This document shows positions 2,290 through 58,343 of a stretch of DNA of 64,000 nt, piece after piece; positions within the stretch are counted from its first letter, which is position 1, and the number at the start of each line of letters is the position of its first letter. Under the pieces are notes generated by a model, which worked only from the letters and a program-made list of their open reading frames with translations, had not been told where the DNA came from and searched no databases. The position numbers and the translations under genes were made by a program. The stretch comes from Polaromonas naphthalenivorans CJ2 (lineage in GTDB: Bacteria > Pseudomonadota > Gammaproteobacteria > Burkholderiales > Burkholderiaceae_C): NCBI RefSeq assembly GCF_000015505.1, contig NC_008757.1:124001-188000 (forward strand), given 5' to 3'.

Positions 2290-2839
2290 CGACCGGCCTG
2301 ACGACAGCCGGCAGGCCATCAATATCGCCCACGTTGATAAGGGTTGGCGGCAGCCAGCGAAAATAAAGTTTGCGCGCGTCAAGAGAGATTTCAGTACCGT
2401 CCTCACGCTTGCGTGGTCCCAATCGAAAGCCATGCCAGTGCGCGCGCCGGAAGTGCCCGCGCGGGCTGCTGTGTTCGCCTCCTGCGCCGCTGGTTTGCTC
2501 CGCCTGATATGCCGCCCGCAGCTTGGCGCCCAGGCGAACGCCAACGTCCCACTTTGTAGGGCCAGCAGCCGGGAACAAGCGCCAGCCGTCGCGCCGTGTG
2601 CGCGTGAGTTCGGGATTGGCCGGATGTCCGGGCTTGCCGCGCCGGGTGTACTCGACATCAGCGCACAGGTACAGCAGCAGGTTGAGGACCGGCCGCAGCC
2701 AGCTGTACTGGGCTGCAATGACCTCATTTTCGGACTGGGCGATATAGTTGCCTCCAGCTTTGACCCACTCGGCCAGCGCAGAACGCAGGCTGTCGTCCAG
2801 CGAGCCTACACCCAGCTCAAGGTACTGTGACTTCGGCAT
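2243..2839 (-). pseudogene. AcrVA2-like protein fragment (5'-truncated)
   Basis: The 198-residue frame matches the C-terminal part of the widespread AcrVA2-like family as I know it. It has a 'VLNLLLYLCADVEY' helix, 'GWRLFPAAGPTKWDVGVRLG', 'FRRAHWHGFRLGP' and 'LYFRWLPPTLINVGDIDGLPAVVRPV'. Full-length relatives, including the type V-A anti-CRISPR AcrVA2 (about 320 residues), have an additional N-terminal part. Here an in-frame TAG lies about 11 codons before the Met, so the N-terminal 100 or more residues are missing. It is divergent from the CARF-sigma-54 regulator. Most relatives sit on mobile elements and have no proven anti-CRISPR function; the family call is good, but activity is doubtful because of the truncation. 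Confidence 0.65.
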
Positions 2840-2921
2840 GAGCTGGTCGCCCGTGTCGGTACCCGTAGTGGTCTAAAGCGTTTATTGAAGTCAACGCGAA
2901 AAATCCATTGCTAGCTCCACT

Positions 2922-2957
2922 TTTACCAAGCATGTAACTGGTTACATGCTTGGTAAA
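2922..2957. promoter_or_regulatory. Perfect 36-bp palindrome upstream of the CARF regulator
   Basis: A 17-bp arm (TTTACCAAGCATGTAAC, 2922-2938), two bases (TG) and the exact reverse complement (2941-2957) lie 18 bases before the GTG start of the sigma-54 activator and 83 bases from the divergent AcrVA2-like fragment. There is no following T-run, so a DNA-binding site fits better than a terminator. A related half (TTTTACCAA then TATGTGTAC) recurs at 4608-4626 upstream of the target operon, which suggests that both are bound by the same regulator. Confidence 0.6.
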
Positions 2958-2974
2958 GCACTTATCATTCGTAG

Positions 2975-4513
2975 GTGAAAAAAACAACGTGGCTGGTTGC
3001 CTGGATCGGCAAAACCGACCATGAGGCCGCAGAAGGTCTCTCCAGTGCCAACCAAGGGCCGATTGCTGGTGCGTTGCTGGGTGCCCAGAGGTTCGACAAG
3101 GTTTACCTGCTGACGAATTACCCGCATGCGCGCAGCGTGGTTTTTTGCACATGGCTGGAGGCCACCACAGGCTATTTACCTGATCAGGTCGAGCTTTACG
3201 ACATCGATTTGCCCAGTCCCATCGACTACGCTGCGATCTATTCAGCGGTCTGCAGCAACCTCCTGGCGGCGCGTCTTCCCCGCGACGAGGTGCAACTCAC
3301 GTTCCATCTCAGCCCTGGCACACCGGCCATGGCGGCGATCTGGATCATCCTGTCGAAGACACGTTTTCCTGCTCGCCTGATCCAGACTTCACGCGAGCGC
3401 GGTATCGAGCCAGTTGATTTCGAATTCGATCTGGCAAGTGACTTTTTGCCCGAGTTTCTCGAACGTGGCAGCGCGCGGATCGAGCGCCTGTCCGCCAGTC
3501 CCGTGGGCGCGGTTGCGCAAGAGTTTGTCGCCATCGTTCACCAGAGCACGGTCATGCGCGAGCAGATCGAATTGGCTCGCCGCGTGGCGGTGTATGACGT
3601 GCCCGTGTTGATTCTGGGTGAGTCAGGCACGGGCAAGGAGCTGTTTGCCCAAGCCCTTCATGCCGCCAATCCGAAACGCAAGAATGCCCTCTTTGTTCCG
3701 GTCAACTGCGGGGCCATTCCGACTGAGCTGGCGAACTCCGAGCTGTTCGGCCACGCCAAGGGCGCGTTCACGGGCGCGGTCAAATCGCATGATGGTTATT
3801 TCACCCAGGCCGATGGCGGAACGCTGTTTCTCGATGAAATTGGCGATCTACCGCTGGATGCCCAGGTGCGCCTGCTCCGCGTGCTGCAGAACAAGGAAGT
3901 CACGCCAGTGGGATCAGGTACGGCCCGCAAGGTCGATGTTCGCATTGTTGCTGCGACACATCGTGACCTGGCGGCCGATGTTGCCGTAGGGCGTTTTCGG
4001 GAAGACCTTTTTCACCGACTGGCCGTGGGCATTCTTCGGCTGCCCCCGCTTCGCGAGCGTCGCGGCGATCTGGATGTACTGATCGACCTCTTTTTGAGCG
4101 CCTTCAATGACGATGCCCGTGATCGCCCCGAGGCGCAGCATAAAGTGCTTTCCGAGTCAGCCAGAAAACTTTTGCACACGCATGAGTGGCCGGGCAATGT
4201 ACGGGAATTGCAGCACACCTTGTTGCGAGCTGCCATTTGGTCGCCTGGCGAGTCCATCGATACGCGCGATGTCGAATCGGCCATCTTTCAGGTGCGCCGA
4301 ATCAGCGATGCCGTCCTGAATCAGCCAATTTCGCAGGGCATCGAGCTCCAGCAGCTTCTTGATCGGGTGGCTCGTCACTACATGGAGCGTGCGCTCGAGC
4401 ACACGGGTCATCGGAAAGCGGCTGCAGCCAAGCTGCTGGGTTTTTCAAATCACCAGACACTGCTCAACTGGGAAAAGCGGCTTGGCGTCGGGAAGGGGGA
4501 ATCCGATGATTGA
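2975..4513 (+). CDS. CARF-domain sigma-54-dependent transcriptional activator
   Basis: A 512-residue RtcR-type regulator. Residues 1-170 form a Rossmann-like CARF domain: beta strand 'TWLVAWIG', '[19 protein letters not shown]', and the diagnostic ligand loop 'HLSPGTPAM' followed by a helix. Known CARF domains sense cyclic oligonucleotides or, in RtcR, RNA ends with 2',3'-cyclic phosphate. Residues ~190-425 are the sigma-54-interacting AAA+ domain with Walker A 'GESGTGKE' (~214), the sigma-54 contact loop GAFTGA (~263) and Walker B '[12 protein letters not shown]'. The C-terminus (~455-505) is a Fis-type helix-turn-helix ('[25 protein letters not shown]'). It begins with GTG at 2975 after a weak ribosome site. 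The next gene downstream has a sigma-54 promoter, so this is very probably its dedicated activator. The ligand is unknown. Confidence 0.9.
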
Positions 4514-4580
4514 CCGCAAAGGGTCTCGAACGGTTCGTCGTTCACAAAACATCCTTTGTGGGATGAAAAAATGAATGTTC

Positions 4581-4626
4581 GCAAGATAACTTGCATAAAG
4601 GTAATTATTTTTACCAATATGTGTAC
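4581..4626. promoter_or_regulatory. Probable upstream activator sites for the CARF regulator
   Basis: Two short palindromes lie about 80-125 bases before the expected transcription start: GCAAG-ATAA-CTTGC (4581-4594) and GGTAA-N6-TTACC (4600-4615). The second runs into TTTTACCAA and TATGTGTAC (4608-4626), which resembles half of the perfect palindrome at 2922-2957. This distance is normal for enhancer sites of sigma-54 activators. The assignment to the regulator at 2975 is inferred. Confidence 0.5.
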
Positions 4627-4677
4627 TGACGCGCGCTTAAGTCGTTGATTTTTAATGAAGATCACTTCCGCCTTGTG

Positions 4678-4693
4678 TCGGCACGGTTCTCGC
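4678..4693 (+). promoter_or_regulatory. Sigma-54 (-24/-12) promoter
   Basis: The sequence TCGGCACGGTTCTCGC has GG at 4680-4681 and GC at 4692-4693 with exactly 10 bases between them, and matches the strong -24 half GGCACG. The -12 half, TCGC, is one base from TTGC. Transcription would begin near 4704-4705, 20 bases before the ATG at 4725, which rules out the upstream ATG at 4695 as the start. It lies directly downstream of a gene for a sigma-54 activator. Confidence 0.75.
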
Positions 4694-4724
4694 GATGACT
4701 CTTGTATCCCATCAGGAGTCATTC

Positions 4725-5060
4725 ATGTTCAACAGCATCACGTCACTTCCTCCGCCTTTGTTCCCCTTGAGCCTCACGAACCACGCGGCCATTCGCATGC
4801 AGCAGCGCGGTATCAGCAGGGCAGCATTGCAGGCGGTCCTGGACTTTGGGCGCCGCATACATGCCAAAGGGCTGACCTTCTATGTGGTGGGGCGCAAGGA
4901 AGTGGCTCTTTATGCCGATCGTGGTGTGAACCTGGCCAATTTCGAGGGGCTGCAGGTGCTGGTCGCGGCTGACGGGGCGGTAGTCACCACATACCGCAGC
5001 CGCGATCTGCATGCCATCAAGGTGCAGGCACGCGGTCGCCCTTCCAAACAGCATCACTAA
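4725..5060 (+). CDS. Small DUF4258-like protein, first gene of the TerY-P operon
   Basis: This 111-residue protein has the pattern 'NHAAIRMQQRGIS..ALQAVLDFGRRI' followed by 'YVVGRKEVALYADRGVNLANFEGLQVLVAADGAVVTTYRS', which resembles DUF4258-type proteins, a small alpha/beta fold related to RelE/BrnT-like toxins. No catalytic residues are proven. The start at 4725 is chosen because of an AGGAG site at 4714-4718 and because the sigma-54 promoter would start transcripts near 4705. It is the first product of the operon and is followed 26 bases later by the VWA gene. It might be a sensor or a small toxin-like component; the function is unknown. Confidence 0.7.
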   Translation: MFNSITSLPPPLFPLSLTNHAAIRMQQRGISRAALQAVLDFGRRIHAKGLTFYVVGRKEVALYADRGVNLANFEGLQVLVAADGAVVTTYRSRDLHAIKVQARGRPSKQHH

Positions 5061-5086
5061 ATTTCATCCAACAAAAGGAGTCCTCC

Positions 5087-5890
5087 ATGGGCTGGGCCAG
5101 TTACCAAGAAGACAACGAGAGTCGTTTTCACCAAGCAACCATTATTCGCAACAAGGAACACGAAGCCATGAAATCCGCACCGTCAGATTCAGCGAAAACC
5201 ACGCCAGCCGCAACCCGGCTTAAAGCCTTTGCCGCACCGCAGGCACGTCCGCTGCCCGTTATCGTGCTGGCCGATGTGAGCGGCAGCATGAGTGAAAACG
5301 GCAAGATCGATGCCCTGAATGTGGCCCTGAAGGAGATGATTCTCAGTTTTGGCAAGGAGTCTGGTCTTCGCGCCGAGATTCAGGTCGGCTTGATTACCTT
5401 TGGCGGGCGTGAAGCACACGAGCACCTGCCGCTGGTAGCAGCGAAAGTTATCGGCGGTGTGGAAGCGTTCAAGGCCAATGGGGGTACGCCGATGGGCTCG
5501 GCTTTTGCGCTTGCGCGCAAGCTGCTCGAAGACAAGGAGCAGATTCCGTCACGCGCCTACCGGCCGGTCTTGATCCTCGTCTCAGATGGTGCACCGACCG
5601 ATGCCTGGGAGGCACCCCTGGCAGACCTGAAGGCCAGCGAGCGGGGCCAGAAAGCCACGCGCTTTGCCATGGCCATTGGCGCCGATGCCGATCTGGACAT
5701 GCTGGCCCAGTTCCCCAATGACAGAGAAGCCCCCGTGTTTAAAACCCACGAAGCACGAGACATCGGGCGCTTTTTTCGCGCCGTCACGATGAGTGTGGTG
5801 TCTCGCTCCACCAGTGCCGCGCCGGATCAGCCGGTGACGCTGGATATGGAGGATGGCTTGACGGACGATCTCGATCTGGACACGCTGTAA
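5087..5890 (+). CDS. TerY-like von Willebrand factor A (VWA) protein
   Basis: A 267-residue cytoplasmic VWA protein. After a ~60-residue leader comes 'PVIVLADVSGSMSENGK', the DxSxS metal-ion-dependent adhesion site. The third-position Thr is in 'GGTPMGSA' and the Asp in 'LVSDGAPTD', so the metal site is complete. It matches TerY of the TerY-phosphorylation triad, in which a VWA protein is coupled to a PP2C phosphatase and a protein kinase. The start follows AAAGGAGT. The next gene begins with GTG immediately after the stop, so translation is coupled. It probably scaffolds or is the substrate of the kinase/phosphatase pair. Confidence 0.85.
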   Translation: MGWASYQEDNESRFHQATIIRNKEHEAMKSAPSDSAKTTPAATRLKAFAAPQARPLPVIVLADVSGSMSENGKIDALNVALKEMILSFGKESGLRAEIQVGLITFGGREAHEHLPLVAAKVIGGVEAFKANGGTPMGSAFALARKLLEDKEQIPSRAYRPVLILVSDGAPTDAWEAPLADLKASERGQKATRFAMAIGADADLDMLAQFPNDREAPVFKTHEARDIGRFFRAVTMSVVSRSTSAAPDQPVTLDMEDGLTDDLDLDTL

Positions 5891-6607
5891 GTGTTGCGTG
5901 CTGCAGGGGCGTGTGTCACCGGGCCGGCCCACCTGAGCGACGGGCAAGACGGGCAGGACGCCCTTGCGCTGCGGGGATGGCGTGGCGGCTGGATCGCGGC
6001 GGTGGCCGATGGTTTGGGGTCACGCACCAACAGCAGGACAGGTGCCCGGCTGGCCGTGCAGGCTGCCCAGCAGGTCGCTCGGCAGTTGCCATTACAGGCA
6101 GGCGCCTGGCGCGACGTACCAGCTCGGGAAGTGGCTACTCGCATCTATCGTCGCTGGCTGGCCACTGTGCCCTGGACGGAAAAATCAAGCGCGGCCACGA
6201 CGCTGCTACTGCTGGCCTGTGATGCGCAAGGATACGCGCGCATCTGGCAGATCGGCGATGGCCTGGTGCTGTGCCGCCTCCGGGGGGAAGTGCAGGTGAT
6301 CACACCGGAGCGCACGGGGTTTGGCAACCAGACCCGGGCGCTGGGGGTCCAGCGTGCCTGGTCGGACTGGAACACAGCCAGCTTCAGGCTGGAAAAACCG
6401 GATGACCTGGTGATGCTGATGACCGATGGCGTGGCTGATGATTTGCCAGCGCCAACGCTGGACGGTTTTACCGCCGTGGTGCATCGCGAGCTGGCGCAGC
6501 GCAGCCGGCGCCAGGCTCGCCGGTGGCTGACGCACGAGCTGACACATTGGGCCACGCCGCAGCACGCCGATGACAAAACGGTGGCCGTGGTATTCAAGGA
6601 TAAATAA
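5891..6607 (+). CDS. PP2C-family serine/threonine phosphatase
   Basis: A 238-residue PPM/PP2C phosphatase. Metal-binding motifs are visible in order: 'AAVADGLGS' near residue 38, 'IWQIGDGLVLC' near 120, 'LVMLMTDGVADD' near 178 and a terminal 'ADDKTVAVV' near 226. It starts with GTG directly after the TAA of the VWA gene and ends 6 bases before the kinase, making the middle member of the VWA-phosphatase-kinase triad. It most likely reverses phosphorylation by the neighbouring kinase. Confidence 0.88.
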   Translation: MLRAAGACVTGPAHLSDGQDGQDALALRGWRGGWIAAVADGLGSRTNSRTGARLAVQAAQQVARQLPLQAGAWRDVPAREVATRIYRRWLATVPWTEKSSAATTLLLLACDAQGYARIWQIGDGLVLCRLRGEVQVITPERTGFGNQTRALGVQRAWSDWNTASFRLEKPDDLVMLMTDGVADDLPAPTLDGFTAVVHRELAQRSRRQARRWLTHELTHWATPQHADDKTVAVVFKDK

Positions 6608-6613
6608 ATTCTC

Positions 6614-8041
6614 ATGAACACAAGCAATAACAAAAATCAGGGCAGCGCGGTCAAGAAACAACGCGTGCAGGACGACCGGGGCACGGTGTACGAATTGAGT
6701 GAAAAGCTGGCAGAAGGCGGGCAAGGTGTCGTTTTGCGTACCCGACACGACAGCCGCCTGCTCGTCAAAGTCAGCAAATGGCCTGACAGCGATCCACGCA
6801 CCCAGGCCTGGCAGCGCCAGATCCAAGTGGTGCATCGCATGCCCATTGTTGAAAATGAACTGCCCATTGCCATGCCCATGGCACTCATCGTCAAGCCGCG
6901 AGCGGGTTATGTGATGGAGTTGATGGAAGGCTTGGTGCCTTTGGAAGATCTTTTGATCCAGGCGCAGGAGGCTTTTAACCAAGGCAACGGCTTGCAGGGC
7001 TTCGTGGCATCGGGCGGGCTGGACCGCAGGCTGAGACTGCTGGCACGCCTTGCCAGAGTGATGGCCAAAGTGCATGGACTGGCCATTGCCCATGGGGATC
7101 TTTCCCCAAAAAACGTATTTGTCTCCAGTTCCCATGAGCATGCCCAGGTGTGGCTGATTGACTGCGACAACCTGAGCTACGCGGTGCGCAACAGCAGCTT
7201 GCAGCTCTACACCCCCGACTACGGTGCGCCTGAACTCCTGCGGGGAGAAGCGGGCATCAGCACCTACACCGATGTCTGGAGCTTTGCAGTGATGGCCTTT
7301 CAATTGCTGGCGGCGCTTCACCCCCTCAAGGGTGGCGAAATGGTGGATCAGGACAGCGAGCTGGAGACGCCGGCATTGCGAGGTGAACTGCCCTGGGTGG
7401 ATCATCCGGACGATGAACGCAACCGGGCCTCCATGGGCGTTTCTCGCGATCTGGTTTGCACCCCGGCGCTTCAGCAGTTGTTTGACCGCTGTTTTCGTGT
7501 CGGTCTGATCAACGCTGAAGAGCGTCCCGTGATGTCCGAATGGGCCGAGGTGCTCGAAGCTGCCGCTGCGCAGCAGGTGCTTTGCAGTACGGCCAGTGAG
7601 GGCTGTGGCAGCACTTTCCTGTGGAACGCAGCGCTGGTTTGCCCGTTCTGCGACACCCGGCATGCAGCCGGCACGGCTCTGCGCCTGAGCCACTTTGTGG
7701 TGGCGCCGCTCAGCGAGCTGGGTGAGGATGCCAAGCCGCCAGATCGCTGGATACCAACTTATTTCCATCAGGTCATTGCACTGCAGCCAGTCGAGCTGAG
7801 GGCGGCTCCTCCGGGAACCGCAAATTATTCAGAGAGCGAACTTGTCGCAACAGTCTGGATCGATGGTGATGAATTGGTGATGCGGCCTGCCAGCGGTGCC
7901 AATGTGCTGTTTCAGGCGTCTGGCAGTTCCAAGCTCGTGCCTGTGCCCAGACGTTTCTCACTGCCACGCAATTCGGTTCCGCATGCCTTGCATTTCGGCG
8001 GGTCAGCACACATTCATGACGCCTGGCGTTTCAAGTGGTGA
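6614..8041 (+). CDS. Protein kinase of the TerY-P triad with C-terminal zinc-binding segment
   Basis: A 475-residue eukaryotic-type kinase. The glycine loop is 'LAEGGQGVV' (~36), the ATP lysine is in 'RLLVKVSK', the catalytic loop is 'HGDLSPKNV' (~160), and the metal motif usually written DFG reads DCD ('WLIDCDNL'). 'YGAPELL' and 'DVWSFAVMAFQLL' mark the activation segment and helix F. After the kinase domain a Cys cluster ('CSTASEGCGSTF' and 'CPFCDTRH', ~320-350) looks like a zinc ribbon, followed by ~110 residues with no recognised domain, possibly a beta-rich (FHA-like) fold. It is 6 bases after the phosphatase and 7 bases before the helicase. The DCD variant is unusual but keeps the metal-binding Asp, so activity is expected. 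Confidence 0.87.
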   Translation: MNTSNNKNQGSAVKKQRVQDDRGTVYELSEKLAEGGQGVVLRTRHDSRLLVKVSKWPDSDPRTQAWQRQIQVVHRMPIVENELPIAMPMALIVKPRAGYVMELMEGLVPLEDLLIQAQEAFNQGNGLQGFVASGGLDRRLRLLARLARVMAKVHGLAIAHGDLSPKNVFVSSSHEHAQVWLIDCDNLSYAVRNSSLQLYTPDYGAPELLRGEAGISTYTDVWSFAVMAFQLLAALHPLKGGEMVDQDSELETPALRGELPWVDHPDDERNRASMGVSRDLVCTPALQQLFDRCFRVGLINAEERPVMSEWAEVLEAAAAQQVLCSTASEGCGSTFLWNAALVCPFCDTRHAAGTALRLSHFVVAPLSELGEDAKPPDRWIPTYFHQVIALQPVELRAAPPGTANYSESELVATVWIDGDELVMRPASGANVLFQASGSSKLVPVPRRFSLPRNSVPHALHFGGSAHIHDAWRFKW

Positions 8042-8048
8042 GATACGC

Positions 8049-11000
8049 ATGAAACTTCAGGAAACTCCTTTCATGCTCAAGGACCTGCTCGGCGCCCGCG
8101 TGACGGCCAGGGATTTCGACCCGACCCAGTGGCAAGTCGGCCAGGAAGTGGTGCTGCGGCTGCGACAGGACGAATTGCTGCTACGGCAAAACGATCAGGT
8201 GACGGCCCTGGCACTGACATCGGAGTCTGGATCGATGGACTTTCATGCCCAGAACCTCGATGCCTTGTGGCTGCTGGTGCGTGTCAAGCCCGGCATGGTC
8301 TGGCTTCAATGCCTGGTGCCGATGCAGACCTGCCAGTGCGAGCCTGGCTTGGACTTCGGTGCGGATCAACGCACGGCAGACAGCCTGCATCAGCAGCAGC
8401 TCATCGGGCAGCCCGACATCGCCGAAGCAATGCGCTGGCTGATGGAGGAATTTGTCTGCACGACAGAAGATGGCTCGTCCAGCCGCGTGTTCATGGCCAT
8501 CCATGCTCGGCAGGATCAGCGGCAGATGCAATTGGTCGGGCGCCGTTACGTGGTGGACTTGAAGCGCGATGCCGAGCAGGCGCTCTGGGTGGAGCGCATT
8601 GCTAAGCGTCGACGTGAAAGTGACGAACCTTTTGCCCTGCTCAACGGCCATAACCGATTCGTCGATGCCAGCCAGGGCATGCAGGCGCAAACCGGTGCGC
8701 AGCGGGCAATACTCGATGCAGCAGTCAACAGTTTCGGCACTTATTTGGAACTATGGCATCTCTACGGCCAGAAAGAATGGGACAAGGATGTGCAGCGAGC
8801 ATCCGAGCTCAAGGCGTTGCGCTACAGCGCCTGCCAGCCTGCCAGCGAGGAAGGCGGCGGATGGCGGCTGAGCGTGCAGCGTGATGAATTGAAAGAGTTT
8901 TCCCAGCGTTGGCGCACTCTGGCTGGTGATGATGACCAGCTTGAAATCGATGAAGACGCGCCGGACTGGAGCAGCGAGCATTACACCGATCTGAGTGTGC
9001 GCGACAAGCGGCGCCTGTTTCGCGGCAAACCGCAGTGGCGTGCCGAGCACCTGATTCTGGAGGGAGAATCCGGAACACGACCGCCACAGGCTGGGTACGT
9101 GTACCTGTCGCTGGCGGGAAACCGCACGCAGCAGGAACGGCGCCAGCATGCACGGCGCGCCATCGAGGCCGGGCTGGGCGTACCGGCCCTGCGCAATCTT
9201 CTGCAGGACTTGCCCACGCCAACCCAGCGCCCATCTCGTCTTCCGGGACTCACTGTCTACGCACGCCAGAGTTTTAAGAGCGGCCGTGCCACGGACAAGC
9301 AGGAAGAAGCGATCCGCGTGGCGCTGAACACACCGGACGTCGCGCTGATCATCGGCCCGCCAGGCACGGGCAAGACCCAGGTGATCGCGGCACTGGAGCG
9401 AAGACTCGCTGAACTCAATGAGGGTCAGGTGATTGCGCAAGAAGTGCTAATTTCCAGCTTTCAGCATGATGCCGTCGAAAACGCGTTGGACCGCACCGAT
9501 GTCTACGGTCTGCCAGCGGTGAAAGTAGGGCGATCGAGCCGACAAGAAGGAGTCGACCCAGTACAGGCGTGGTGTCACAAACACGAGGTGATTCTCGATA
9601 AACGCCTCGATGAACTTAGTAGCCAGGAGCCCACGCAGGCCCTTTTGCAGCAATTGGGCAAACTGCTCAACAGTCTGCTGATCCTGGGCACGCCTTCATC
9701 TCGGCGCGAGGAATCCTTTCTGGCCTTGGAAGGCTTGCTGGCCCGACTCGCGACCGAGGCCCGCATCCGGCCATCATCGCGCTGGCAGACGGACTGGGAG
9801 GCATACCGCGAGCATGCAGCCGACCAGCCGACCAGCGGTCACGACCTGATGCCGGGGCGGCGCAGGCAGTTGACGCGCCTGGTGCGCGGATTGCGCACCC
9901 TGGCGAGCTCGTTCGAAGACGATGGGCCGCAGCGCGCCCGCATTGCACTGGGGCTGCTCCAGGAAGTGCCTGGCCTGCTGACCCAGCAAGACAAGGCGCT
10001 GCTGCAACGTGCCTCCAGCCTGAACGCCGTGGAGCCAACACTGCTGGCAGAACTTGCCGTCCTGCGTGACCAGTTGCTCGATCGGCTGCGCCCTGACTCG
10101 CGTTCTGCGACTGTTCGTTCGCAGTTCGACGCATCAACTCTCGCGCTGCTGCAACGCTTGCACACAGAACTGGCTGACAAGGTGGCGGCCACGCGCCACC
10201 ATCAGTACGGGGTACTGGAACGCTACCGAGATGCCTTTCGTTCCCACCCAGGCTGGGTGCGCAAGGCGATCGAAAACTACAGCAGCATCGTGGGGGCCAC
10301 CTGCCAGCAGTCAGCCAGCCGCCAGATGAGCGAGCTGAAAAATACGGCTGGCGACTCCATGGCCGGCATGCAGTTCACCAGCGTGGTGATCGACGAGGCG
10401 GCCAGGGCCAATCCACTGGATCTGTTTATTCCGATGGCTTTGGCCAAGCGACGCATCGTGCTGGTGGGGGACCACCGCCAGCTCCCGCACCTGCTCGATA
10501 CGGACATCGAGGAAGACATCCGTGCCGAGCGGGGCGATCAGGTGCACAGCAACACCTACAAGGACAGCTTGTTTGAGCGCCTGTGGCGCCAGTTCAAGCA
10601 GCGCGAAGCGGCCGATGGTTTTTCGCGTGTGGTGATGCTCGACACCCAGTTTCGCATGCATCCCAGGCTGGGAGATTTCGTCAGTCAGCAGTTCTACGAG
10701 AACGCCGGCTTGGGCAAAGTGCACTCTGGGCGCAAAGCCGAAGACTTCATCGCAGAAGTACCTGGCTTTGGCGGGGCCGTGTGTGCCTGGAGGGATGTGT
10801 CTGCAGAGGCAGGCCGCGAGGAGTCTCATGGCACCAGCCGGCGCCGCCGGCCAGAGGCGAAGCAGGTCGCCCGGGAGGTCCAGCGCCTACTGACGGTATT
10901 GCAGCAGGACATGAGCGTGGGGGTTATCACCTTTTATGCAGCCCAGCGCGACTGCATTTTCGAGGAACTCGCTGGGCTTGGCATCTCCGAAAAAGGGGAG

Positions 11001-11375
11001 GGTGGCTGGCGGGTGCGTCCCGAGCATGCGGCCAATGTGCAGTGCGCCGAGCGGCTGCGCATCGGCACGGTGGATGCCTTCCAGGGCAAGGAGTTCGATG
11101 TGGTGGTGCTGTCAGTGGTACGCAGCAATCCACTGCCTCTGGGCTTGCGTGAAGAGGCGGACAGCGAAGAGGCTTATGAAAAGCCAGCCAGCCGCAAGTA
11201 CGGCCACCTGCGCACCTCGAATCGCCTGAACGTGGCCATGAGCCGCCAGCGTCGGCTGCTGGTGGCTGTGGGTGATCAGGCCATGTTCAGCGGCAAGGCG
11301 GCCTGCCAGGCCGTCCCCGAAATGAACGCCTTTCTGGAACTTTGCCAACAGGAGGCTCAGCATGTCAGCGCCTGA
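8049..11375 (+). CDS. Upf1/DNA2-like superfamily 1 helicase
   Basis: An 1108-residue protein. A large N-terminal part (~1-410) without recognised motifs precedes an SF1 helicase core: motif I 'GPPGTGKTQ' (~437), motif II 'VVIDEAARA' (~780), motif III 'LVGDHRQLPH', 'LDTQFRMHP', motif V 'TVDAFQGKEFD' (~1007) and motif VI 'NRLNVAMSRQR'. A long insertion between motifs I and II (~480-740) is alpha-helical. ATG 8049 is preferred over earlier in-frame codons because those lie inside the kinase gene, and it follows that stop by 7 bases. Upf1-like helicases act on RNA or DNA; together with McrB/McrC-like neighbours a nucleic-acid-processing complex is likely. Confidence 0.88.
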   Translation: MKLQETPFMLKDLLGARVTARDFDPTQWQVGQEVVLRLRQDELLLRQNDQVTALALTSESGSMDFHAQNLDALWLLVRVKPGMVWLQCLVPMQTCQCEPGLDFGADQRTADSLHQQQLIGQPDIAEAMRWLMEEFVCTTEDGSSSRVFMAIHARQDQRQMQLVGRRYVVDLKRDAEQALWVERIAKRRRESDEPFALLNGHNRFVDASQGMQAQTGAQRAILDAAVNSFGTYLELWHLYGQKEWDKDVQRASELKALRYSACQPASEEGGGWRLSVQRDELKEFSQRWRTLAGDDDQLEIDEDAPDWSSEHYTDLSVRDKRRLFRGKPQWRAEHLILEGESGTRPPQAGYVYLSLAGNRTQQERRQHARRAIEAGLGVPALRNLLQDLPTPTQRPSRLPGLTVYARQSFKSGRATDKQEEAIRVALNTPDVALIIGPPGTGKTQVIAALERRLAELNEGQVIAQEVLISSFQHDAVENALDRTDVYGLPAVKVGRSSRQEGVDPVQAWCHKHEVILDKRLDELSSQEPTQALLQQLGKLLNSLLILGTPSSRREESFLALEGLLARLATEARIRPSSRWQTDWEAYREHAADQPTSGHDLMPGRRRQLTRLVRGLRTLASSFEDDGPQRARIALGLLQEVPGLLTQQDKALLQRASSLNAVEPTLLAELAVLRDQLLDRLRPDSRSATVRSQFDASTLALLQRLHTELADKVAATRHHQYGVLERYRDAFRSHPGWVRKAIENYSSIVGATCQQSASRQMSELKNTAGDSMAGMQFTSVVIDEAARANPLDLFIPMALAKRRIVLVGDHRQLPHLLDTDIEEDIRAERGDQVHSNTYKDSLFERLWRQFKQREAADGFSRVVMLDTQFRMHPRLGDFVSQQFYENAGLGKVHSGRKAEDFIAEVPGFGGAVCAWRDVSAEAGREESHGTSRRRRPEAKQVAREVQRLLTVLQQDMSVGVITFYAAQRDCIFEELAGLGISEKGEGGWRVRPEHAANVQCAERLRIGTVDAFQGKEFDVVVLSVVRSNPLPLGLREEADSEEAYEKPASRKYGHLRTSNRLNVAMSRQRRLLVAVGDQAMFSGKAACQAVPEMNAFLELCQQEAQHVSA

Positions 11376-12801
11376 GCGTTATTTGCGCTGGAACGGGCGT
11401 TCCCCACGTGGAAAGAAGCTGCCCCTGCTCTGGCCGGTGCTGGTCTGGACGGTGCTGGCACCGCAGGCATCGTTGCGTCTGAATGTCTTTCAGGAAGCCA
11501 TCCTGGGTTTGCTGCATGCAGGCGAACGCGACCTGAATCGGCTGGCAAGCCTGCTGGAGTTGGCGCCGGAATTGGTGGCCTACATCATCGCCAAGGAACT
11601 GCAGCCAATGCGTTTTGTGGATTCGCGGCAGCACGTTACCCCGGAAGGCGTGAAGTTGCTCAAGGGCGAGACTGGCCGCGAACCGCGTTTGACCTTGCAG
11701 TATGCATTTCAAGACGCCGTGTTTGGCCAATGGCTTCCCCGCCTGAGTACAAACTTGCCAGAGGTGATGCCGCGCGAGGGCGGCAGGGCCGAGCGCCCGG
11801 AGTTTATGTTCAACCGTGACAGCGGCTGGGTGGATCGGCCATTCCTGCTGCCTCGCAGAGATTGGGCGGGCCCACCTGAGAAGAAACTGGTGCTGCAAGC
11901 CTGGCGGCAATGCCAGCGGGCACAGGCGCAATCCAGCCAGGACGATACCGGCTTCGTGGCGGATTTCAGCAGCGAGGACATCGATTTCGTCGGTGACCAG
12001 CCGATGCAGGCTAGGGTCTGGTGCGACCTGTATATCAATCCGGATGACCCGCAGCCCTGGCTGGTCAGCGACCCATGGCATTTAACTGGGGCTGCAAAAT
12101 GGTTGCGCGAGCCTTTGCAAAAGGAATTGCCCAGGTTTGCACAGCTGGCCGAGCGCATTGGAAAGCTTTTGCCTGAAGTCGGCGCCAGCGATAAGGAGAC
12201 CGAACTTCAGGTTGAGCTAAAGCTGGCCGCGATGCCCCACCTGACCAAGCCCGAGCATGCACTTCTGCGTGAGCATTTGGGCCGTGTGATGCGTCAACGT
12301 GGCCGGCTGGAGCAGCAGGAGAGGACTCACCAGGAAGAACTGAACAGCCTGGCGCAGGAATGCGCATCGTTGCTGGAGGCCATTGTGAAATGGTTGCTGG
12401 AGCGCTGGCCGGTGGATGCCAGTGACTGGCCCCGTACGCATTGGAGCCGCCAACACGGGAGCGAGTTGTTGAGCCAGTTGCCTTTGCGGGCTGATTTGAG
12501 CCGCCAAGTGATCGCCATCTTGTGTGGTCAAGAAGCCAAAGTGGTCCGGCTGGCGGTGATGCTCAAAGACCGCCCTTTCAAGGCTCTGCTGTTCGGCGCC
12601 TTGCTGTGTACGCATGAGCATGCCGACCACCCCTTGCGCCACCTTCCGGCAAACAGCCTCCAATGGGATCGGGTGCTTGAATTGGTGGACAAGCGCAACA
12701 AGGGCAGCCACGCCAGCGGCCAGAGCATGGAGCGCCACGAAATGCTTGAATGGGCGGACTTCACCCTGGCATGGCACGAGCAATTCAAACCTTATTTCTA
12801 A
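11362..12801 (+). CDS. Winged-helix protein with possible C-terminal HEPN-like domain
   Basis: A 479-residue protein with no recognised family. Residues ~35-85 look like a winged helix ('FQEAILGLLHAGERDLNRLASLLELAPELVAYIIAKEL', then a beta-rich wing). The middle has a coiled-coil stretch (~300-345). The last 70 residues are helical and contain 'LVDKRNKGSHASG', an R-x4-H pattern with Asn after Arg, as in HEPN ribonucleases. The start has an excellent AGGAGG site and overlaps the helicase stop by 14 bases. If the HEPN call is right, this could be the toxic effector of the operon; otherwise it is a structural component of the McrBC-like assembly. Confidence 0.6.
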   Translation: MSAPERYLRWNGRSPRGKKLPLLWPVLVWTVLAPQASLRLNVFQEAILGLLHAGERDLNRLASLLELAPELVAYIIAKELQPMRFVDSRQHVTPEGVKLLKGETGREPRLTLQYAFQDAVFGQWLPRLSTNLPEVMPREGGRAERPEFMFNRDSGWVDRPFLLPRRDWAGPPEKKLVLQAWRQCQRAQAQSSQDDTGFVADFSSEDIDFVGDQPMQARVWCDLYINPDDPQPWLVSDPWHLTGAAKWLREPLQKELPRFAQLAERIGKLLPEVGASDKETELQVELKLAAMPHLTKPEHALLREHLGRVMRQRGRLEQQERTHQEELNSLAQECASLLEAIVKWLLERWPVDASDWPRTHWSRQHGSELLSQLPLRADLSRQVIAILCGQEAKVVRLAVMLKDRPFKALLFGALLCTHEHADHPLRHLPANSLQWDRVLELVDKRNKGSHASGQSMERHEMLEWADFTLAWHEQFKPYF

Positions 12802-12825
12802 TAAAAAAGCTAAATATCACACCTC

Positions 12826-15267
12826 ATGGCAAAAAAGAATAAACCGAATTATCCGAACCAAAAAGCTTACGCTGCGGGTACGACACCCGCACCTGCATCT
12901 TCATCTGCGCCGAGTGGGTTGTTCGGGCGAATGTTTGCGACGGTTAAACAGGCCGCCCCTGTGCTGAAAATGGATGCGCCACATTGGGATGAAGATCAGG
13001 TCAAGGATTTATGGGGAAAACTGCCCACACCAGAGCAGCTTCGGTTCCAGGTCTTTACTGATCAGTTCACACAACTTGGAACTCAGATGAAGGAAGCGCA
13101 TGAGCGCTTCGTCGCTGCGGAATCGGATTTCAACGCGCAGCAGCAGGCTGGGGACGCCAAACTGGCGCAGGAAATTTCCCGACTTGGCGCCGAACACCAA
13201 GCGATCAGCGATGGCCATGCTGCGTTGAGTGCAGAGCGTGAACACTTGCGCACCACCCAGGCAGCGTTGGAGAACGAGCGAGCCGGACTGCAGCAACACC
13301 GTCTGGCCATCACCCGCCAGGAAGAACACCTTACCGTTCGGGAGGCCGAACTGCGTGGTGGCCTGGTGGCCGAGCGTGAGCAGTCGCTCGCAGAGCTGCG
13401 CAAGCAGGTGTCCGATCTGGAAACGCTGAGAAACCGCCTTCCTGCCGACATGGACAAGGAGCGCCAGACATTGCTGGCCCAAGCCCGGCTGGATGCACAA
13501 GCCTTGATGGCCAGTGCCGAGCAACATGCCGCCACGCTGCACGGACGGGAAATCAGGCTCAATACGCTGGAGCTGGAGCTGGACAAGCGCAATGAGCGCC
13601 AGCAGATGAACGAGGAGTTGCTCCAGGTAAGGTGCGCGTCGCTCACCAAGGAGATTGAGGAAGGCTTTCAACGCCAATTGGATGACAAAGAGGAACAACT
13701 CCAGCGCAGGCTCAAGGATCTGGACAAGCTGCACAACAGGATAGACCAGCAGCAGTCAGAACTCGATGGCTTGGAGAGTCTGCGTGATCAGGTGGGAGAC
13801 GATCCGCAGCGCATGCTGGATGAACTTGATGCCTTGCGGCAGGACAAGCGCGCTCTGGATCGGGAAGTGCAGGCACTGCGCGCCAATCGCTCGGAAGATG
13901 ACGCCAATGAACTGCGCAGCCAGCGTGACCGGCTTCAAGAGCGGCTGACGAAAGATGAAAATGAACTGTTCGATTTACGTCATCGCGAGTCGGTGTGGCG
14001 CAGCAGTGTCACAGAACAGCAAGACTGGCAAAAGGCACGCAAGGTCTTAGAAAAAAATCGGGAACTGCTGCACGATGTCGTTGATCGCTTGCAGAGCGAT
14101 GTGGATGGAATGCTCAGCAAGCAAAAGGAAAATACTGTATTTCCTGAACTGACCCGCATGGACCTGGAACTCATCAAGCCGGTTCACACCGATCCAGTGC
14201 CAGAGCTGAAGCACCTCGTGGGCGATTTGCAAGCGCGCATTCTGTATGCCGAGCCGGGCAAAGAGTTGCACTTTCGCAAGGAGGAGTTGCAGCTCTTCGT
14301 GGGCGGCCTGGCCATGAGCCAGCTGCACATTTTTCAGGGTATCAGCGGCACTGGAAAGACCAGCTTGGCGACGGCCTTTGCCAAGGCGGTGGGCGGGGAA
14401 TGCACGATTGTGCCGGTGCAGGCGGGCTGGCGTGAGCGCGCCGACCTGCTGGGCCACTTCAACTCTTTCGAGAAGCGCTACTACGAGCGCAACACGCTGC
14501 AAGCCCTCTACCGCGCACAGACCGAAGCTGATCAGGATCGCCTTCACATCGTGCTGCTGGACGAGATGAACCTGTCGCGACCCGAGCAATATTTTGCCGA
14601 GTTCCTCTCGGCGATGGAACTGAGCGAGCGGGATCGCTGGATCAACCTGATGGAGGCACGACCTGCACATGGTGCACCGACCAAGCTGAGAAATGGACGC
14701 GACATCTTGCTTCCGCCCAATCTCTGGTTCATTGGCACGGCCAACCACGATGAAACCACTAATGCATTTGCCGATAAGACGCATGACCGGGCCTTTGTGC
14801 TGGAATTGCCCAAGCAGGACACCGTGAAAGAAAAGATCGCCAAGCCGCAGTCGCGTGCGAGCTGGAGCTTTGAGAGCCTGAACCGGCAGTTCAACAAGGC
14901 TCGCGATAAATACAAGGATCAGATTGCCGAGCTACAGACGCTCATCAACCAAAGCAGCCTGACTACTTTGCTCAGCGAAACATTCAGACTGGGCTGGGGC
15001 AATCGGCTGGAGTCGCAGATGCAGCGCTTCGTGCCGGTGGTGTTGGAAGCGGGCGGCTCTGAAGCGCTGGCCGTGGACCATCTGCTGGCCAGCCGCATGT
15101 TTCGCGATGGCAAGGTGATCGGCCGGCATGACGTGGATGCAAACAAACTGCATCAGGTGGAAGATGCACTGAGAGTGATGTGGGAGGACTGCGAGCTCAC
15201 GGGCGAACCCACCCGTTGCCTGGCCGCACTCGAAAGCGACATCGAGCGCCTGGACTCGGGCAGATGA
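12826..15267 (+). CDS. Coiled-coil McrB-like AAA+ ATPase
   Basis: An 813-residue protein. A lysine-rich, low-complexity head (1-40) is followed by a long coiled coil (~70-420, Glu/Arg/Gln-rich heptads) and a C-terminal AAA+ domain of the McrB/MoxR type: Walker A 'GISGTGKTS' (~505), Walker B 'HIVLLDEMNLSRPEQYF' (~574) and sensor 'LWFIGTANHDETT'. McrB itself uses GTP through an MNxxD motif, which is absent here, so the nucleotide preference is unknown. Its stop overlaps the ATG of the DUF2357 gene by four bases (ATGA), as in mcrBC operons. It is expected to form hexamers that drive the downstream partner. Confidence 0.85.
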   Translation: MAKKNKPNYPNQKAYAAGTTPAPASSSAPSGLFGRMFATVKQAAPVLKMDAPHWDEDQVKDLWGKLPTPEQLRFQVFTDQFTQLGTQMKEAHERFVAAESDFNAQQQAGDAKLAQEISRLGAEHQAISDGHAALSAEREHLRTTQAALENERAGLQQHRLAITRQEEHLTVREAELRGGLVAEREQSLAELRKQVSDLETLRNRLPADMDKERQTLLAQARLDAQALMASAEQHAATLHGREIRLNTLELELDKRNERQQMNEELLQVRCASLTKEIEEGFQRQLDDKEEQLQRRLKDLDKLHNRIDQQQSELDGLESLRDQVGDDPQRMLDELDALRQDKRALDREVQALRANRSEDDANELRSQRDRLQERLTKDENELFDLRHRESVWRSSVTEQQDWQKARKVLEKNRELLHDVVDRLQSDVDGMLSKQKENTVFPELTRMDLELIKPVHTDPVPELKHLVGDLQARILYAEPGKELHFRKEELQLFVGGLAMSQLHIFQGISGTGKTSLATAFAKAVGGECTIVPVQAGWRERADLLGHFNSFEKRYYERNTLQALYRAQTEADQDRLHIVLLDEMNLSRPEQYFAEFLSAMELSERDRWINLMEARPAHGAPTKLRNGRDILLPPNLWFIGTANHDETTNAFADKTHDRAFVLELPKQDTVKEKIAKPQSRASWSFESLNRQFNKARDKYKDQIAELQTLINQSSLTTLLSETFRLGWGNRLESQMQRFVPVVLEAGGSEALAVDHLLASRMFRDGKVIGRHDVDANKLHQVEDALRVMWEDCELTGEPTRCLAALESDIERLDSGR

Positions 15268-17159
15268 AGGTCTTTGACCGCTATGTCGGCGCCGATGTGG
15301 AGTTGCCTGCCGAAGTGGATCCCGGGCGCTACCGCTTGCTTGCACCGGTGTGTCTTAACGGGACCCTCCTATTGCAGGCGGGTGAAGTGTTGTGGAGCGA
15401 CGGCGGCAGCCGCTGCCTGCTGACGGAAAGTCTGTCCGATGAGCAGGTCCGCAGTTTCAGGACTTCTCCCGCTGAGCAGGACGGGCAGACGCCTGGTTCT
15501 GTCATTGACGCGGCCGTGCTGGCTGTGGCCGAGCAAGTGGAATCGATGAACCCGGGGGACAGTCTGCCATCGCCAGTGATGCCAACGAAGCTGGGAGAGT
15601 TGGCGCAGATGTACCCCTTGGAGCGACTGCTGGAAACAACCCTGTCGGCAGGACATCTGCAAACCATCGCCAAGCGCCCGCGCATGGACATGCGTTACGA
15701 CACCGAAATGCTGCCCGTGTCCCGCGTCCAGCGGATGGCGGTGGATGCGGTGACGCGTCTGGCCTCGCATTCCGAGGACTGGATCCGCCGCGAGATCACG
15801 GGCGTCGTGCCAGGACGGCTCAAGGCGGAGATCAGCCAGGACGAACTGGTAATTTATGAGAACATTGTCTTCGCTCGACTGCTTGATCGTCTTCGTAAAA
15901 CGCTGCGCAAGCGTCTGCGCGATCTCGATGCCTTATTGTCCAAGCAGGCTGAAGCTGGAAAGCTGGAGAATGCCCAGCACTTTGACCACCGTCTAAGGCA
16001 TGACTTGTGTGAACTCTGGGGTCGGTCTTTTGCCGATCAACCTGGAGCCGGCAAATCGGTGCATGTCACGCGCGACCAAATCAGCGCACTTTTGGGCAAG
16101 GTGACGCAGCTTCAGCGAAGCACGGTAGTTCAGGCAATTCCCCCGATGCAGCAGGTGCCGCTGTCTTTGCGCAGCACCAATATTTTGCAGCATGACCCCC
16201 ATTACCGCCATCTGCGGCCTTTGTGGTTGCTCGCCCATTCCACCTTGCTTCAGCAAGCACGCAGCCCGCAAGACTGGCTCAACGATCAGCGGCAACGGGC
16301 TCAACGCTACAGCGCTTATACCGGGTTGCTGGTTCGCCATGCCTTGCATGCCAGCAAGATGGTTGATCCGCAGGGTGAAGGGGCATCCTGGCGCTTCGGC
16401 CCATCGACACTGACACTGCGCAGCGAGCGCGGGGACTGGATCTTGCAACTGCGCACCGGTACGGGGTCAGTTGAGCAGCTGACCGTGGTACCTGCTTGGC
16501 GTGGTTGCCGTGACTGGGAGGGTCAAAAGCTTGATCGCTGTGTGTTGTTTTGCCATCCAGACGAGACGGAGGCAGATGACAGCGCAACAGGCAGCGACAG
16601 TGTGCTCAATCCGTTGCAGTTCTATGGTGTTGAGCGTGTGCGGCAGGCGATCGAGCGATGGCTGCTGGCTCAACTGCTGATTCGGTATCCGTTCCACGTC
16701 AAGAATGTGCCAGCAGCCTTAGCCAACGATTGCAAAAATGCTGCGCCTAATTTCATCAAGGTTGACGGGCGATCACTCAGCATCATCGGCGCACCAGACG
16801 CGCAAGTCAGAGCGAAACTGGAAGAGTTCATGCGTGCCGGCAAGACCAGCCAGGAAACCACTCATGCAATCACTAATGCGCTGGATCAGGCCAAACTGCT
16901 GGCCAAATGCCGGCTTTGTGGTCAATCCGTAGCACCCAGTGACTTTAAAAAATCTGCACATGGATTCAAGGCCAGTTGTGGCTGTGGTCACACCTGGACG
17001 TTTCAGCGATCAGGCGATGGTACCCTGCAGGCAGCGTACCGGCTTGGCGCTCAACAGCGTCCGTTTTCTGAGATCGGGAGTCGAGAACTTTTGATTGGGC
17101 CGGCTTCTTTTGCGCAACTTCCTCCACAGTCCACACAGAAAAAGCAGTGGGTTTCGTAG
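15264..17159 (+). CDS. DUF2357 / McrC-like partner protein with zinc ribbon
   Basis: A 631-residue protein starting at the ATGA overlap. The central 'MRYDTEMLPVSRVQRMAVDAVTRLASHSEDWIRREITGVVPGRLKAEISQDELVIYENIVFARLLDRL' region resembles DUF2357, the domain paired with McrB-like ATPases and McrC-type nucleases. The C-terminus has a four-Cys zinc ribbon ('CRLCGQ' ~548 and 'SCGCGH' ~570). I cannot pick out a certain PD-(D/E)xK nuclease signature, so cleavage activity is not claimed. It is the last gene of the plus-strand operon and ends 6 bases from the convergent phospholipase-D gene. Confidence 0.65.
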   Translation: MKVFDRYVGADVELPAEVDPGRYRLLAPVCLNGTLLLQAGEVLWSDGGSRCLLTESLSDEQVRSFRTSPAEQDGQTPGSVIDAAVLAVAEQVESMNPGDSLPSPVMPTKLGELAQMYPLERLLETTLSAGHLQTIAKRPRMDMRYDTEMLPVSRVQRMAVDAVTRLASHSEDWIRREITGVVPGRLKAEISQDELVIYENIVFARLLDRLRKTLRKRLRDLDALLSKQAEAGKLENAQHFDHRLRHDLCELWGRSFADQPGAGKSVHVTRDQISALLGKVTQLQRSTVVQAIPPMQQVPLSLRSTNILQHDPHYRHLRPLWLLAHSTLLQQARSPQDWLNDQRQRAQRYSAYTGLLVRHALHASKMVDPQGEGASWRFGPSTLTLRSERGDWILQLRTGTGSVEQLTVVPAWRGCRDWEGQKLDRCVLFCHPDETEADDSATGSDSVLNPLQFYGVERVRQAIERWLLAQLLIRYPFHVKNVPAALANDCKNAAPNFIKVDGRSLSIIGAPDAQVRAKLEEFMRAGKTSQETTHAITNALDQAKLLAKCRLCGQSVAPSDFKKSAHGFKASCGCGHTWTFQRSGDGTLQAAYRLGAQQRPFSEIGSRELLIGPASFAQLPPQSTQKKQWVS

Positions 17160-27170: not shown

Positions 27171-27865
27171 GCCCCGAAGTTGCCTGAGGTGGCAGGAGAC
27201 GCAATCGGTTTTTCCTCGACGCCAAGGAATTCCAGACGCATTTCGACGCGCCGGCTTTCCTCTGCCGTGTCCTTGGAGGAATTGAAGGCAAAGCCGCCCA
27301 CCAGGAACACATCGCGCACGGCATCTTTCTGAGCCTCAGTCAACGCATCAGCGCCGCTGGTGGTGAACATGGCGCACAGGACACGCTGGCTGCGCATCAG
27401 GCTGAGGTTGAGATTGCCCAGGTAGGTGCCGGCACGGTCCGTGTAGCCTTCGACGACAACGCGCTTGAGTACGCGTTTGCAGCTCGGTGTCTGCGCCATC
27501 GAAAGCAGTTCGGGAACGAAGCGGCGCAAGACCGCCTCCTGCTCCGGCGCCAGCACCGAGCTGCCAAAAGCGAAGCGCGCCCGGTCGCCGAAGTCGATTA
27601 CGCGGCGGTCGAGATCAACCTTCACCCCCTTGTGCCGCTCGGCCGCGGTGACAGCCTGCGCCATGCAATTGTCCACGTCTTTCTTGTGCTGAGCCTCGAG
27701 CGCTTCCCGCGCAGAAACGGTACGGGTCACCGCCAGCAGCGCCACGGCCATCACCACCAGGAACAACACCATCAGTGCCGTCATCAGGTCGGCAAAGGAA
27801 ATCCAGAAGGGTTTTTCGGCTTCGCCCTGCGAGCCTCGCCGGGTGCGAGCGCGTGAGCCGATCAT
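27158..27865 (-). CDS. zorB: ZorB: MotB/OmpA-like peptidoglycan-anchored subunit
   Basis: A 235-residue inner-membrane protein. A short cytoplasmic head is followed by one membrane helix with the conserved ion-coordinating Asp ('WISFADLMTALMVLFLVVMAVAL', ~22-44), a periplasmic linker and an OmpA-like domain ('VVVEGYTDRAGTYLGNLNLSLMRSQRV', ~155-185) that should bind peptidoglycan. It pairs with ZorA as a proton-driven motor of the MotAB/ExbBD class. The ATG overlaps the zorA stop (ATGA). Confidence 0.9.
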   Translation of the reverse strand: MIGSRARTRRGSQGEAEKPFWISFADLMTALMVLFLVVMAVALLAVTRTVSAREALEAQHKKDVDNCMAQAVTAAERHKGVKVDLDRRVIDFGDRARFAFGSSVLAPEQEAVLRRFVPELLSMAQTPSCKRVLKRVVVEGYTDRAGTYLGNLNLSLMRSQRVLCAMFTTSGADALTEAQKDAVRDVFLVGGFAFNSSKDTAEESRRVEMRLEFLGVEEKPIASPATSGNFGACAI

Positions 27866-37203: not shown

Positions 37204-37206
37204 TAC

Positions 37207-38655: not shown

Positions 38656-38713
38656 TCACGAACTTTCAAAAGATAAGACTCAAGGCATTTTCGGACCGAA
38701 CAACTCACACCTG

Positions 38714-56569: not shown

Positions 56570-56614
56570 GGTGGTTTATCTCTGAGGGTCGTCGCACATC
56601 AATCGCTTCGGGCG

Positions 56615-56681: not shown

Positions 56682-56692
56682 TGGCTTGACGC

Positions 56693-57241: not shown

Positions 57242-57244
57242 CGA

Positions 57245-58312: not shown

Positions 58313-58343
58313 CTGGGCGCTCCTGGGAAATAGCTGGCTATTG

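Follow-up and report, generated by a model that had tools for sequence, protein, structure and literature searches.

A predicted sigma-54-type control region going with the CARF regulator of a Type II CoCoNuT operon in Polaromonas naphthalenivorans CJ2

Here, we describe a putative defence operon of Polaromonas naphthalenivorans CJ2, located at positions 2975-17159 of the 64,000-nucleotide stretch of DNA analysed (the window), together with the predicted sigma-54-type control region that separates its regulator gene from the genes behind it. Nine genes lie there on the plus strand, with an RtcR-like regulator first and a McrC/DUF2357-like protein last. An initial annotation had named a CARF-sigma-54 sensor, a TerY-P triad and McrBC-like genes; all of these are present in the order described and on the plus strand, and from 4725 onward the genes overlap or are separated by gaps of at most 26 bases. 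Its assignments were right, while the small DUF4258 gene at 4725-5060, the first after the promoter, had gone unnamed. The genes are:

2975-4513, plus strand: RtcR-like regulator with CARF, AAA (sigma-54 activator) and helix-turn-helix (HTH) domains, 512 amino acids (aa), PADLOC RtcR_PspF2 group (632.7 bits)
4725-5060, plus strand: DUF4258 protein, first gene of the operon, 25.8 bits against a cut-off of 25; AGGAG precedes the ATG at 4725
5087-5890, plus strand: TerY-like VWA protein, with a weak PADLOC TerY match (25.2 bits)
5891-6607, plus strand: PP2C phosphatase, by domain match
6614-8041, plus strand: Ser/Thr kinase with one CxxC pair (343) and further cysteines behind the kinase domain, zinc-ribbon-like
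8049-11375, plus strand: CnuH, Upf1-like superfamily 1 helicase (AAA_11 and AAA_12)
11362-12801, plus strand: CnuE, winged HTH (wHTH) and C-terminal HEPN-like bundle with RNKGSH, by sequence and structure model
12826-15267, plus strand: CnuB, putative long coiled coil and McrB-like AAA domain with the NHDE (NxD) motif, by sequence matches
15264-17159, plus strand: CnuC, McrC/DUF2357-like, DUF2357 being assigned via a relative

For CnuH, the ATG at 8049 is preferred to an alternative GTG at 7896, which would overlap the kinase gene, and for CnuC the start at 15264 is better than that of the longest frame. The AAA_11 match of CnuH spans 398 residues for 248 model positions, with a predicted insert after Walker A. 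CnuB carries Walker A at 505 and NHDE at 640, and its N-terminal half matches SMC/JetC-like models. The structure model of CnuE comprises a wHTH and one HEPN-like bundle with the RxxxxH motif RNKGSH; VIA-align on this model returned wHTH and HEPN rows, Foldseek alone gave nothing significant (best E 0.28), and a sequence search of the PDB yielded one chance-level match. Pfam did not score the window CnuC as DUF2357; a protein of locus L117, 31% identical to CnuC and at the same place in the same gene order, passes the DUF2357 cut-off (24.9 vs 23.3 bits). PD-(D/E)xK was not found in CnuC with the one pattern used, and Rfam gave no match at gathering scores. A search with CnuE in 274 genomes of the class found matches in three, the genome of the window included.

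The NxD McrB-like protein, the wHTH-HEPN protein CnuE, the UPF1-like helicase and the TerY-P triad (VWA, PP2C, kinase) are among the features of Type II CoCoNuTs, and judged from its sequence the locus is a Type II CoCoNuT with an RtcR-like regulator and a BrnT-like gene at its 5' end; we call the DUF4258 protein BrnT-like following Bell et al. 2024. The CARF-sigma-54 and TerY-P/McrBC-like unit of the initial annotation is supported, but the association is already in print and the unit has a name. Bell et al. 2024 (PMC11090510) report Type II CoCoNuTs with an RtcR homologue and a BrnT-like gene, describe a regulator directly before CoCoNuT as well, and propose sigma-54 activation by analogy; an association of regulator and operon was also proposed by Makarova et al. 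2014. Compared with the former description, gene content and order are the same (NxD McrB-like protein, Upf1-like helicase, single-HEPN effector, TerY-P triad, CARF and BrnT-like genes at the 5' side), and the sets of genes were not found to differ; it is the cis-elements that are described here. The main text of Bell et al. 2024 uses 'promoter' once and 'upstream activating' once, and a literature search at the level of titles and beginnings of abstracts met no CoCoNuT promoter or enhancer, which does not establish their absence from print. What is added here is the predicted control region: a conserved promoter, and in some relatives also an enhancer and an IHF-type site, that go with the CARF regulator. 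In the window, its elements are:

4581-4594, plus strand: first dyad of the predicted enhancer (upstream activating sequence, UAS), GCAAGATAACTTGC
4601-4614, plus strand: second dyad of the predicted enhancer, GTAATTATTTTTAC, 20 bases from the first
4638-4650, minus strand: IHF-type site, TAAGTCGTTGATT on the plus strand, starting 41 bases before the -24/-12 16-mer
4679-4694, plus strand: sigma-54-type -24/-12 promoter, CGGCACGGTTCTCGCG, with GG at 4680-4681, GC at 4692-4693 and a predicted start at ~4705

Scoring used a weighted sigma-54 consensus matrix and an IHF consensus. All parts of an enhancer-dependent sigma-54 promoter are present in the sequence, namely GG-N10-GC, a candidate enhancer upstream, an activator gene, and rpoN in the genome. 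The tandem dyads at 4581-4614 score 16 of 16, which none of 2000 shuffles reaches (P=0.0005), and are the only such tandem in the 64 kb. The sigma-54 promoter that the initial annotation had called good is present at 4679-4694, although the adjective was generous: its score is 10.4 out of 19.5 (P=0.066 when the surrounding 400-base region is shuffled), and a matrix from 33 other RtcR clusters gives P=0.016. We take it as real because it is conserved, because tandem dyads and an IHF-type site lie upstream of it, and because of the 33-cluster matrix. The pattern TGGCACGGNNNTTGCW was also searched in the host genome; it was too strict and gave no match.

With an alignment of VWA relatives (A1, 23 sequences), 350 loci were found; the comparison covers the best 80, which come from named genomes. 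Three loci on viral contigs were left out of the counts. The initial annotation had proposed a search for the same gene order with CARF-sigma-54 genes in other genomes, and CoCoNuT loci with a linked RtcR-like gene do occur among these relatives. A CARF-containing RtcR-like gene was found in the fetched stretch in 32 of the 80 loci, and in 17 it lies upstream on the same contig, roughly 9-28 kb from the VWA gene, same-contig placement being judged by equal length of the records. For 18 loci no RtcR-like gene was found in the genome among the best matches down to 1e-60, drafts included; nine of these genomes gave no match at all and nine gave matches to the AAA part only. The impression from the 10-kb flank that many loci are without a regulator was overturned by a search of 41 genomes beyond it, which placed the regulator upstream on the CoCoNuT contig in 17, elsewhere on this contig in three and on another contig in three. 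RtcR matches without the CARF part or below 100 bits were excluded; in E. coli genomes, the best 20 of 5375 matches are other sigma-54 activators. Left out of the rtcR counts were L040 (the same gene as L110), L046 (a near-copy of L045) and L071 (a copy of L070). Of the resulting 56 RtcR-like genes, window included, L093, L103 and L107 are on a contig other than that of the CoCoNuT. L098 and L100 share the CoCoNuT contig but are encoded on the opposite strand at a distance of tens of kb, L108 follows the operon, and L029 neighbours a VWA gene accompanied by no more than a partial PP2C match.

Within -60 to +450 around the rtcR stop, a -24/-12 site scoring at least 9.9, the threshold used, lies behind 51 of the 56 RtcR-like genes, or 34 of 38 clusters when they are grouped at 70% identity. 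Of 221 equally long control stretches, 16 have one, and 9.5% of shuffled stretches reach this value. Scores of at least 13.5 are reached behind 29 of the 56 genes and in none of the 221 controls. The five genes without a site in this range are L016, L045, L050, L070 and L098; that of L016 lies further down, before the BrnT-like gene. Where the regulator is roughly 9-28 kb off, the site is found behind rtcR in 17 of 17 loci and also before BrnT/VWA in three of them. CoCoNuT loci with a linked RtcR have the site in 47 of 50 cases, window included, against 3 of 18 loci with none found (Fisher P 1.3e-9, a value that treats related loci as independent and compares groups in which different stretches were scanned, namely two in the linked group).

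Thirteen of the 80 loci stand outside this two-by-two comparison: the copies L046 and L071, and eleven others. L032, L034 and L038 have another arrangement (scores behind rtcR 4.3, 13.2 and 16.0; before BrnT/VWA 13.2, 13.5 and 9.6), and L030, L068 and L081 have the regulator on another contig (6.0, 7.6 and 4.1). L006 and L023 have a partial gene (14.0 and 11.5), L067 and L069 another sigma-54 activator (14.7 each), and L044 scores 7.9.

Plasmid-borne regulators give a similar picture. In the six best (tblastn, best 6 of 2464), the site lies behind rtcR in 6 of 6 with scores of 13.5-16.7, against 1 of 24 controls at 9.9 or more; these copies are new records rather than new lineages, and several resemble loci among the 56. 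One of them, on a Rhodoferax antarcticus plasmid record (L117), has the gene order of the CoCoNuT again, its VWA gene adjoining the regulator. In four others the regulator stands at the head of Type I restriction genes, and one record is unannotated. The coupling of the CARF-sigma-54 regulator to the operon, as the initial annotation had it, is supported by the comparison of relatives. RtcR_PspF2-like regulators beside Type I restriction genes are also treated by Makarova et al. 2014; in plasmid records H1 and H3-H5 the regulator is 38-64% identical and the -24/-12 site lies right behind it. These regulators head HsdR/M/S-type genes, and no CoCoNuT is annotated in the plasmid stretches examined. 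The plasmid-borne regulators of similar sequence located directly before Type I restriction genes are L116, L118, L119 and L120.

Some single loci show other arrangements. At 7520-9703 of L019, one regulator lies between two outward sigma-54-type sites, before the BrnT-like gene and before a 1147-aa frame, and one sensor may here serve two operons. L067 and L069 carry a weakly matching sigma-54 activator on the other strand and a -24/-12 site of 14.7 before the CoCoNuT (in L069 only if the scan extends 45 bases past the estimated start, otherwise 5.8), so that the promoter may have been kept with another activator. Ten proteins near the VWA gene in six RtcR-less loci belong to mixed families, with no common one as a replacement regulator. 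Among loci with no RtcR found, L055 (8142-9398), L054 (6789-8152) and L064 (7975-9296) hold a Cas_NE0113 family protein in one case and DarT-macro pairs in two.

A count of spaced dyads upstream of rtcR put GTAA-N6-TTAC first (6 of 56 loci, 0.15 expected); downstream it was tied second (7 of 56, 0.10 expected). Its copies are often paired, 19-21 bases apart. A tandem GYAA-N6-TTRC scoring at least 14 of 16 occurs before or behind rtcR in 17 of the 56 loci (13 of 38 clusters) on which the motif itself had been defined, in comparison to 0 of 112 stretches inside the rtcR gene and ~0.5 expected from shuffles. In these sequences, the position of the tandem relative to the promoter is more telling than the tandem count. 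All 9 loci that carry the tandem behind rtcR have their best -24/-12 site at least 84 bases from the rtcR stop. Of the 8 that carry it before rtcR, 7 have this site at most 30 bases from the stop and the eighth (L098) is without a site; two Vibrio plasmid copies follow this latter pattern. A tandem before rtcR might act over the length of the gene or serve autoregulation. Among the 17 loci that leave 60 bases or more before -24, 7 have an exact IHF-type site; none of 51 controls does.

The regulator matches the PADLOC RtcR_PspF2 model over its full length (residues 5-505), as do all 49 members of alignment A2, window included, at 1e-20. It stays below the cut-off of the NCBIfam RtcR equivalog NF038308 (359.5 vs 650 bits). 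The structure matches listed cover residues 181-441 only, leaving the CARF fold outside the structural comparison. Upstream of its gene, two features were found:

2922-2957, no strand assigned: perfect palindrome of 36 bases with 17-base arms, covering the -35 region of the rtcR-like gene, which may be an operator
2941-2968, plus strand: predicted sigma-70-like promoter GTTACA-16-TATCAT of the rtcR-like gene, by consensus scan

The palindrome is only partly kept in the closest relative, L005, and no long palindrome near rtcR is common to most loci. The -10 of the predicted promoter lies only 6 bases before the GTG start, which is leaderless-like; the scan of 2800-5100 gave this one match with 0.9 expected by chance, hence it is weak alone. 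A TATNAT box 3-12 bases before the rtcR start occurs in 11 of 56 loci (0.8 expected) and was dropped as a general feature.

Besides rpoN, the host genome carries a separate rtcR divergent from rtcB, whose product is 30% identical to the RtcR-like protein of the window over 391 aligned positions. In the host rtcB promoter stretch, a sigma-54-type site scores 16.7, and an IHF-type site starts 40 bases before -24/-12 (41 in the window) in the other orientation; the UAS and IHF site of E. coli rtcBA were described by Kotta-Loizou et al. 2022. Common to both systems are a CARF-AAA-HTH activator, a sigma-54-type promoter and an exact IHF-type site at near-equal distance. They differ in their target genes and in the dyad, no exact copy of the window type being found within 526300-526900 around the host rtcB promoter (one with a mismatch lies at the 3' end of the promoter). 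Because of the low identity, the missed RtcR cut-off and the missing exact dyad, the cell likely has two circuits, one for RNA repair and one for CoCoNuT.

With regard to its surroundings, the window resembles a defence island on a mobile element. A phage-type integrase with DUF3701 (72-1946) adjoins the operon. Behind it, at 17166-21226, lies a convergent pair of a PLD-like protein (weak ZacB/DrmC matches) and a 520-aa protein without Pfam or PADLOC match. Zorya type I zorD, zorC, zorB and zorA follow at 21574-30312 on the minus strand, and Gabija (gajB, gajA) and BREX (brxHI, brxD, pglZ, brxC, pglX) genes are found at 42679-62045, also on the minus strand. At 34708-40369, an Hsp70-like protein, an IetA-like AAA ATPase and a 611-aa protein without Pfam or PADLOC match stand in a row, possibly an uncharacterised unit. 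The Zorya, Gabija and BREX genes are the context for a possible anti-phage role of the operon.

With gene order, domain content and the conservation of the cis-elements with the regulator as observed above, we regard it as probable that the locus is a Type II CoCoNuT operon with an associated RtcR and a predicted antiviral role, placed behind a transcriptional alarm that would work as follows. The RtcR-like protein would be made at low level from its own sigma-70-type promoter and, by homology, be held off by its CARF domain. From characterised relatives we infer this inhibition, a ligand and oligomerisation, as well as the RNase activity of the HEPN protein. IHF would bend the DNA, the AAA domain would open sigma-54 polymerase at 4679-4694, and a single transcript would cover all eight genes that follow. 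The further proposal of the initial annotation, expression solely after a nucleotide or RNA-damage signal, is conjectural. The VWA-phosphatase-kinase triad, the helicase-HEPN and the McrBC-like proteins would then degrade or block RNA. We speculate that HEPN cleavage might produce more cyclic-phosphate ends and thereby keep the switch on; phage defence itself is equally speculative.

Several observations weigh against this interpretation. The -24/-12 site of the window departs from the consensus at three places and would not stand alone, and 36 sites on both strands of the window score at least 10.3. In L013-L015 the site is present with no regulator found; L014 and L015 end near a contig edge, close upstream, and L013 has BrnT-like and VWA genes with no PP2C, kinase, CnuE, CnuB or CnuC match in the fetched stretch. 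L032, with the regulator 37 kb away on the other strand, has the site before BrnT and none behind rtcR. Upstream of rtcR, the dyad count of 6 is no higher than the maximum that any dyad attained in 100 shuffles; downstream, other dyads are over-counted too, which we ascribe to the relatedness of the loci. Besides its circular definition, the tandem remains below threshold in 39 of the 56 loci; of the plasmid copies only 2 of 6 have it, both from Vibrio and kin of L107, which is itself among the 56. In L045 and L050 the tandems are clear, yet no -24/-12 site scores above 7.7, and the exact IHF-type site is found in 0 of 34 loci where -24 is within 60 bases of the rtcR stop. As to the signal, the CARF domain of Salmonella RtcR binds tRNA halves with a cyclic-phosphate terminus (Hughes et al. 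2020). The proline P117, just behind strand 4 of the model, is invariant in the RtcR-like clade of the window, and Makarova et al. 2014 noted that most RtcR-type CARFs are without the otherwise usual positive charge at this place and that their ligands might be distinct ones. Because of this proline, the ligand of the clade may differ from that of Salmonella RtcR. Finally, 15 of the 18 loci with no RtcR found are without a site of at least 9.9 in the scanned stretch. Related operons lacking both the CARF gene and the -24/-12 promoter, which the initial annotation had named as a refuting case, thus exist; their joint absence refutes universality and not coupling. Since most RtcR-less relatives are without the site, sigma-54/RtcR control of CoCoNuTs is, as far as these sequences tell, common but not universal.

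The same wiring could also carry another signal: the CARF domain would read a cyclic oligonucleotide or another phage-made nucleotide, and the operon would respond to the infection itself instead of to damaged RNA. Csm6-type CARF domains bind cyclic oligoadenylates, the N-terminus profile of the clade weakly matches Csm6 6tug (E=5.3e-4), and a clade so distant from the host's other RtcR, seemingly with its own enhancer, may differ in its signal too. We nevertheless hold this to be unlikely: no cyclase or Cas10 family is among the PADLOC matches listed for 29 of the window proteins (the best 25 where lists are long), and the closest characterised relative is RtcR.

It is more doubtful still that the operon is mainly driven by sigma-70, with the RtcR-like gene as passenger or fine-tuner. 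This would suit the 15 of 18 loci with neither a regulator found nor a site of at least 9.9, and the weakness of the window site taken alone; however, no sigma-70-like promoter turned up between 4514 and 4725 in a consensus scan, whose sole match in 2800-5100 precedes rtcR, regulator and site mostly co-occur or are jointly missing, and many relatives retain dyads and IHF-type site. Mokosh systems fuse kinase and helicase, and the unit could be read as a split Mokosh system instead of a CoCoNuT, since PADLOC MkoA covers both CnuH (304.2 bits) and the kinase (48.5 bits) and MkoB weakly matches CnuE (18.2 bits). What the two share is helicase and kinase kinship, whereas the window unit has a separate kinase, a McrBC-like pair and a HEPN-like effector; the NxD McrB-like, DUF2357-like, VWA, PP2C and HEPN-like proteins fit the Type II CoCoNuT description, and kinship of helicase and wHTH may explain the shared matches. 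This identity was therefore not adopted and appears highly improbable.

Beyond the RtcR-controlled CoCoNuT operon preferred here, we tentatively propose, with considerable doubt, that RtcR_PspF2 serves as an alarm for defence in general. This alarm would have an enhancer code of its own (tandem GYAA-N6-TTRC, copies 19-21 bases apart), be distinct from the rtcBA RNA-repair circuit of the cell, and could be placed before CoCoNuT, Type I restriction or both in line. HEPN feedback on the RNA-end signal would turn it into a latching, infection-triggered switch.

The switching of CoCoNuTs has so far been proposed by analogy, and the predicted elements now provide exact DNA targets for reporter or footprint tests. 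Their occurrence with a CARF regulator suggests that CARF signalling controls defence via transcription, and not only via nuclease activation.

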